Assembly (NCBI GenBank): GCA_029865835.1
Contig: JARXAL010000046.1
Location: 1-37,877 of the forward strand
DNA length: 37,877 nucleotides
Source: Verrucomicrobiaceae bacterium
Lineage (GTDB): Bacteria > Verrucomicrobiota > Verrucomicrobiia > Verrucomicrobiales > Verrucomicrobiaceae
Direction: 5' to 3'
The first letter of the stretch is position 1, and the number at the start of each line of letters is the position of its first letter. Below the pieces are notes generated by a model. It was not told the origin of the DNA. It ran no database searches and saw only the letters and a list, made by a program, of their open reading frames with translations. Both the position numbers and the translations under genes were made by a program. This document shows positions 34,188 through 35,600 of this stretch, in pieces.

Positions 34188-35600
34188 ATGAAGACAGCCC
34201 GCCGCCAGATCCTCAAAGCCTTCCCACTCTTGGTTTGGCAACGTCAGCTCCTTCACGCCGCAGAATCCCAAGCTCCCTATCTCGGCCAAGGCACCATGTG
34301 TGGTGAAGTCACCCAGTCCACCGCCTACCTGCAGACGCGGCTGACGAGCGCCACGGAACTAGATGCCAACGGTGACCTTCCAGGTGCCAACGGGGTGGCT
34401 TGTTTCGAATGGAGCTCAAAGGTGGATTTCAGTGATGCTCAGCGCACGATGTTTCAGGCTGCGAGTGATGCCAGTGACTTCATTCTCCGCGCTGAACTCA
34501 CCTCTCTGAAACCGAACACGGCTTACTACTACCGCCCGGTCTTTGGCAGCTCGGAAGCAAGCGCCAAGCCAGGTCCGGAGTGTTCCTTCAAGACCTTGCC
34601 GAGTGGTGAGACCGACACGCCGGTGAAGTTCATCGTGGGCAGTTGCATGAACTACAACTAGTTCATGCTCGGCAAGAAAGGCAAGGCCAGCGGGCCGGAG
34701 ACAGCTACGTCGGAAGATAAGCGACTCGGCTTCCCCTCCTTTGAAACCATGCTGAAGCTGCGACCTGACTTCTTCATCGGCACGGGCGACATTGTCTATT
34801 ACGACCACCCGCTTCGTGTGGCCAAGACGGTGCCACAACTGCGCAAGTGCTGGCATGAGCAGTTTCGCTTTCCGCGCATGATTGAATTCTTCCGTCACGT
34901 GCCGACTTATTGGTCAAAGGACGATCACGATTTTCGATACAACGAAGGCGACAACACCAGCAGCGAGCTGCCTTTGCCAAAGACCGGCATCGATATGTTC
35001 CGCGAGCAGTTGCCTGTGCCAAGCCCCAGCTACCGAACCCATCGCGTCGGCAAGAACCTGCAAATTTGGCTCACCGAAGGCCGTGACTATCGCTCGCCTA
35101 ATGAAATGGCTGATGGCCCGGGAAAATCACTCTGGGGCACCAAGCAGCGTGAATGGCTCAAAGCCACACTCAAGGCCAGCGATGCGAAATGGAAGATCAT
35201 CATCTCGCCCACGCCCATGGTCGGCCCCGACGACAAAAAGAAGATCGATAACCACGCCGACATCAGCGGCTTCCGACATGAAGCCGATGCCTTCTTTGCC
35301 TGGCTGCAGGAAAACAAGATCGATAACCTCAAGCTCATCTGCGGTGACCGTCATTGGCAGTATCACAGCATCCATCCATCGGGCATCGAGGAGTTTGCCT
35401 GCGGTGCGTTGAACGATGAAAACTCTCGGATGGGCGTCGCTCCGGGTGACAAGAAGGGCTCTGATCCACAGGCGCTGATTAAGCAGGAATACACCTCGCC
35501 CACACCCAATGGCGGCTTCTTGCAAATCACCGCCGGAGATGAACTCGTCCTCGAGCACCTCGACTCGCGAGGAAAGCAACTGCATCGCGTGATTAGATAG
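34188..35600 (+). pseudogene. PhoD-like metallophosphatase interrupted by an in-frame TAG
   Basis: Two same-frame pieces, 34188-34661 (157 codons) and 34665-35600 (311 residues), are separated only by TAG at 34659-34661 and one TTC codon. Read through, they make one 470-residue exported PhoD-like enzyme. It has a Tat-like start (TARRQILKAF), an N-terminal Fn3-like PhoD domain with KPNTAYYYRPV, then VGSC just before the TAG. After the TAG come GTGDIVYYD, SKDDHDF and CGDRHW. The normal residue at the TAG is probably Tyr (NYN-Y-FM), one base change away. The break separates the iron-binding Cys motif (153) from all other ligand motifs, so two pieces alone should be inactive. Sequencing error, recent nonsense mutation or read-through are all possible. 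All other codons look intact. Confidence 0.75.

Follow-up and report, generated by a model that had tools for sequence, protein, structure and literature searches.

The question raised by this locus is how a single in-frame TAG inside an otherwise open gene of the PhoD phosphatase family should be understood. The first-pass annotation had left four readings side by side, namely a sequencing error, a fresh nonsense mutation, genuine read-through, or reinitiation. The window, i.e. the whole stretch of DNA that was analysed (37,877 bases), is either a full contig or the first 37,877 bases of one; the draft assembly to which it belongs totals 4.01 Mb, is split into 292 contigs and is 85.56% complete. 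Translation bore out the starting observation: the PhoD frame (34188-35600, forward strand) comprises 470 codons and ends with its own terminal TAG, the TAG at codon 158 (34659-34661) is its sole internal stop, and the first Met codon past it, at 34665, lies two codons on. The features of the locus are as follows.

34188 to 35600, forward strand: predicted PhoD-family phosphatase gene, a 470-codon frame interrupted at codon 158 (translation, PF16655 and PF09423, orthologue identity).
34188 to 34658, forward strand: N-terminal part, 157 aa, with an Arg-Arg signal-like start, MKTARRQILKAFPLLV (judged by eye, a candidate twin-arginine export signal), and PhoD_N (translation, Pfam).
34644 to 34646, forward strand: Cys153 codon; in the 2YEQ alignment this residue falls on the Fe3+ ligand of B. 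subtilis PhoD (invariant in 57 of 57 copies).
34645 to 34668, no strand: perfect inverted repeat with arms 34645-34654 and 34659-34668 and a 4-base loop (repeat search, DNA fold).
34659 to 34661, forward strand: in-frame TAG at codon 158, which is AAG in the orthologues L003, L004 and L005 (alignment).
34665 to 35600, forward strand: C-terminal part from the next ATG onward (311 aa), without signal-like start and without Cys153 (open reading frame, Pfam).
35346 to 35600, forward strand: 3' end of the gene, from an L013-like allele (diagnostic sites; the final 181 bases are 95% identical to L013).

Both parts of the frame retained recognizable domains. The N-terminal part matched PhoD_N (PF16655) with 36.1 bits, and the C-terminal part matched PhoD (PF09423) with 79.1 bits, above the curated cut-off of 27. 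Codon statistics also backed coding on either side of the stop, which ranked second among 759 in-frame stops in a codon-usage scan of a 376,632-base genome sample. Only in-frame stops with an open frame of at least 60 codons on both sides were counted, and the codon-usage model had been seeded mainly with genes of the window and of contig C236, plus the L005 orthologue, the stopped PhoD gene itself being among the seeds. The amino acid identity of the window PhoD to the intact orthologues L003, L004 and L005 was 92-93%. The closest orthologues that carry a name come from Verrucomicrobiaceae assemblies. Upstream lie a DUF1552 gene and a DUF1592/DUF1588 cytochrome-type gene; downstream come a gene that matches 3-keto-disaccharide hydrolase weakly, short of the curated cut-off, and a sulfatase.

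The stop lies beside the iron-ligand motif. Cys153 paired with chain position 124 of 2YEQ in the alignment, which corresponds to Cys-180, with an offset of 56, because the mature construct starts at codon 57; Cys-180 (precursor numbering) is reported as an Fe3+ ligand of B. subtilis PhoD (PMC4223295). The gene therefore shares with that enzyme, a member of the PhoD / purple acid phosphatase superfamily, the PhoD_N and PhoD domains and the ligand Cys that marks the Cys subfamily of PhoD. An Fe3+ and Ca2+ active site and phosphodiesterase activity are further hallmarks of PhoD phosphatases. The window gene differs from the B. subtilis enzyme in that the frame is broken five residues past the Cys, and the enzyme is probably not made. 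The first-pass annotation had placed the stop four residues after the Cys, whereas it is the fifth (Cys153, stop at 158). Its view that this Cys is an iron ligand and that each part is left without a full metal site holds: Cys153 sits on the N-terminal part and the remainder of the PhoD domain on the C-terminal part, and neither part alone would be expected to form the complete site. Outside this genome, Cys153 and Tyr156, close to codon 158, are invariant in all 57 copies. The residue at 158 is not a catalytic one, because it varies across the family (K 34, S 10, R 4, F 4, A 3, P 1 and E 1 in the same 57 copies).

To establish what codon 158 encodes elsewhere, a scan of contigs was used, which yielded 60 loci; together with the window copy and a paralogue these made 62, and in 59 of them the alignment covered codon 158 (58 besides the window). 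L053, L059 and L062 were left out of the count, as the site was not covered. Lys was encoded in 35 of the 58 other copies (AAG in 19, AAA in 16), the remainder having Ser, Phe, Arg, Ala, Pro or Glu codons. A stop was found at this codon in 0/58, and no further stops were present within the matched stretches of these copies. The Tyr that had been expected at this position was likewise encoded in 0/58, which rules it out as the original residue. In the three closest orthologues (L003, L004 and L005) codon 158 is AAG, and this appears from the alignment to be the ancestral codon.

The comparison was extended to the genus and the family. The orthologue of G002, which belongs to the same genus, is intact (93%), and its locus is identical to L005 over 8,775 bases; G001 and G003 contained only a more distant PhoD copy (56-61%). 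Among 68 family genomes, 24 gave 27 matches (E 1e-100 or better), and the window copy was the only one interrupted (0/26 among the others). Relatives with the same split, which the first-pass annotation had regarded as evidence against its proposal, were searched for among the aligned copies, the genus and the family, and none was found. The stop, without counterpart in orthologues or family matches, is therefore private and recent, and a frame-disrupting change missing from the orthologues is one mark of a pseudogene. An intact paralogue, L002, 62% identical, is present on contig C118, so this genome contains at least two close PhoD-type copies, one of them stopped.

What is new here is that the stop base coincides with the mismatched base of a quasi-palindrome. 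The motif is encoded in L003, L004 and L005 by an imperfect inverted repeat, GCATGAACT-ACAACA-AGTTCATGC, with 9-bp arms and a 6-base spacer, and within each of these genes it is the only repeat with arms of at least 8 bp. The base changed in the stop is the innermost mismatched base (A-A); it is now paired in the window, and the arms have become perfect over 10 bp. No other perfect inverted repeat with arms of at least 9 bp and a loop of 3-12 occurs in the 37,877 bases of the window. The single-strand DNA fold had a value of -10.2 kcal/mol in the window (z = -4.19) and -9.2 in L005, and 0/200 shuffles were as stable in either case. When all 4239 single substitutions of the L005 gene were generated, four reached a 10-bp arm. 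Only one of the 156 stop-making substitutions yielded an arm of at least 8 bp, and this was the observed change.

The inverted-repeat statistic is post hoc, and across the genome repeats this long are not uncommon, since arms of at least 9 bp also appeared in 31/500 codon shuffles of the L005 gene and 29 such repeats were present in the 376,632-base sample. The repeat is partly a by-product of coding the conserved motif CMNYNKFM; outer arms of 8-10 bp with the inner mismatch were found in 11 of the 58 other copies, the paralogue of this genome included (10 bp, AAG). In this paralogue the quasi-palindrome (L148:7246-7271) has 10-bp arms and the same motif and inner A-A mismatch as the window gene, and the gene is intact.

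A mismatch-closing change of this type is what template-switch mutagenesis leaves behind, as does an artefact of library preparation with the same geometry. Template switching that perfects quasi-palindromes is established in E. coli, and the reported cases (thyA hotspot, lacZ reporters; PMC7202029) resemble the present one in the one-base change that perfects an imperfect repeat; the window case differs from them in being natural, unselected, known from an assembly alone, and in creating a stop. We consider it rather probable that Lys158 (AAG) was recently changed to amber (TAG) by a quasi-palindrome template switch, and that this nonsense substitution inactivated one PhoD copy. The polymerase would stall at the quasi-palindrome of the motif, switch template for one base, copy the opposite arm and switch back, and the switch would close the innermost mismatch, turning AAG into TAG within a perfect 10-bp stem. 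Efficient termination at the TAG would then leave the 157-aa N-terminal part as the sole product, or no stable product at all. The cell would rely on the intact C118 paralogue, and the stopped gene would be a pseudogene of very recent origin or a polymorphism at strain level, with decay still to come.

The same geometry may also arise in the laboratory. End-repair fold-back on the imperfect repeat could have copied the mismatched base during library preparation, with low coverage making it the consensus, and this artefact, of the library or the assembly, is a lesser but serious possibility. Artefactual single-base calls at mismatches of inverted repeats are reported from sequencing libraries (PMC10908179), the 6-base spacer and the repeat of more than 8 bp are of that kind, and the source is a fragmented, incomplete draft. 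However, the filter described there requires the mismatch to be at least 2 bp from the ends, and the reported artefacts occurred at low variant frequency. In addition, the C118 paralogue, with a stronger repeat and the same inner mismatch, still reads AAG, and the 1323 substitutions that separate this genome from G002 in the aligned stretches include just one, the stop change, that falls in a perfect repeat of at least 8 bp of this genome. A second lone stop in the assembly, on contig C103, is not at any repeat. A plain random A-to-T substitution with a coincidental hairpin seems unlikely: nonsense substitutions are described as common and short-lived in bacterial genes (PMC7918605), but only 1/156 stop-making changes of the L005 gene creates such a repeat.

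Decoding of the TAG at some rate, programmed or tolerated, with production of the full-length enzyme, is very improbable. The frame and its conservation run to the gene end, and reports exist of bacterial genes with dN/dS below 1 whose in-frame stops were taken as read-through (PMC7918605), but the stop is absent from all other copies and family matches, RF1 is intact (455.6 bits, over the cut-off), and the CTA anticodon was found in 0/34 typed tRNAs. These comprised 33 Rfam matches and one tRNA detected by ARAGORN; those for Asn, Asp and Cys are missing, so the tRNA set is incomplete. TAG also terminates the DUF1552 gene, an ordinary gene of the window. The base after the codon-158 TAG is T, which raised termination in E. 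coli, where TAG reporters gave a mean read-through of 0.01-0.80% of wild type (PMC11126739). Recoding would call for a stop conserved among relatives, which this one is not, and for a suppressor tRNA or a missing RF1; RF1 is present, and no suppressor tRNA was found in the incomplete set. The literature consulted on read-through combined with metagenome assemblies held nothing specific. Reinitiation has a negligible probability; it would start at ATG 34665 and produce two separate chains, which would then assemble. The ATG is suitably close, two codons past the stop, but the C-terminal part would begin without a signal-like start and without Cys153, no purine-rich ribosome site was found ahead of 34665, and the ATG lies within an RNA stem, in the 3' arm of the hairpin. 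Met160 is kept in 39 of 57 copies and replaced or missing in 18, so that it is not a conserved start. Given the intact RF1, the lack of a UAG-reading tRNA among the 34 typed and the T after the stop, read-through and reinitiation are unsupported, and among the readings listed by the first-pass annotation the comparative evidence sustains a fresh nonsense mutation or an artefact. Genome-wide reassignment of TAG was also considered and rejected: RF1 is intact, no CTA tRNA was found, and the second stop of the assembly is a TAA.

Selection on the two parts is in accordance with a recent nonsense change. Between the window and L005, dN/dS was 0.24 before the stop (codons 1-157) and 0.08 after it (codons 159-362, the imported 3' end being left out). 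Changes on the window lineage were four synonymous and three nonsynonymous before the stop and five and one after it, the stop itself excluded and eight sites unassignable. Further decay of the PhoD frame (other stops, frameshifts, relaxed dN/dS) was looked for and not found. A single stop with low dN/dS fits a recent loss and argues against long decay, but the post-stop changes are too few to date the loss, and an intact downstream frame is equally expected if read-through still makes the protein. The lone stop, purifying selection and lack of other decay resemble the in-frame stops in bacterial genes described by Belinky et al. 2021 (PMC7918605); however, the window stop is absent from relatives, whereas that study demanded sharing to reduce artefacts.

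The 3' end of the gene has a different origin. Positions 34188-35262 are of L005 type at 241/268 sites that distinguish L005 from L013, the diagnostic sites of 35263-35345 are mixed (9 and 5), and 35360-35600 is of L013 type at 54/60 sites, with the junction between 35345 and 35360. Within 35263-35600 the sequence thus passes from L005 to L013 type; the final step of the change takes about 15 bases and preserves the frame. This succession indicates that the 3' end is an imported, recombinant in-frame replacement. The contig might be chimeric, but the two proxies have just 14 identical bases in common at the junction, which would be short for an assembly join. On the downstream side the similarity to L005 stops at the PhoD gene, and the downstream genes differ from those of close relatives, the order PhoD, 3-keto-disaccharide hydrolase-like gene and sulfatase being that of L017. 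In L005 a sulfatase directly follows PhoD, and in this genome that sulfatase is located on contig C236 (95%), where a further PhoD-like gene precedes it. The segment with these two genes (L123:1371-4838; the PhoD-like one encodes 628 aa) is 92% identical to the segment after PhoD in L013. A search of C236 for a remnant of the window PhoD gene gave no significant match. Judged from these arrangements, a PhoD/sulfatase cassette appears to be shuffled among relatives.

The second stopped gene, on C103 (L137:1511-2509), encodes a D-2-hydroxyacid dehydrogenase split by a single TAA at 2051-2053, both halves of which match Pfam; the position is GAC in G002 and GAG in G003. Across the 20 sampled stretches and the window it was the sole further clear case. 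Inverted repeats with arms of at least 6 bp were not found at this stop, which is thus not explained by the template-switch mechanism. Scattered nonsense changes, or consensus errors, therefore occur elsewhere in the assembly.

Most simply, the locus is explained by a fresh inactivating mutation, or by a sequencing artefact of the same hairpin, with no new reading of the genetic code. The stopped PhoD copy is judged to be an ordinary nonsense allele of recent date; its mutational explanation is a good one, but an artefact with this geometry can look alike. One candidate for recoding of a stop codon is thereby removed, and a testable mutational account takes its place. Before read-through is invoked for a lone stop in a metagenome assembly, the site should be examined for inverted repeats. 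It is doubtful, although conceivable, that the CMNYNKFM codons form a built-in quasi-palindrome in part of the PhoD family, a mutational hotspot at which one template switch would turn the Lys codon beside the ligand into a stop and serve as an off-switch. If the base is true, the gene would illustrate from nature how the codons of a conserved catalytic motif can form a hairpin that is prone to mutation.
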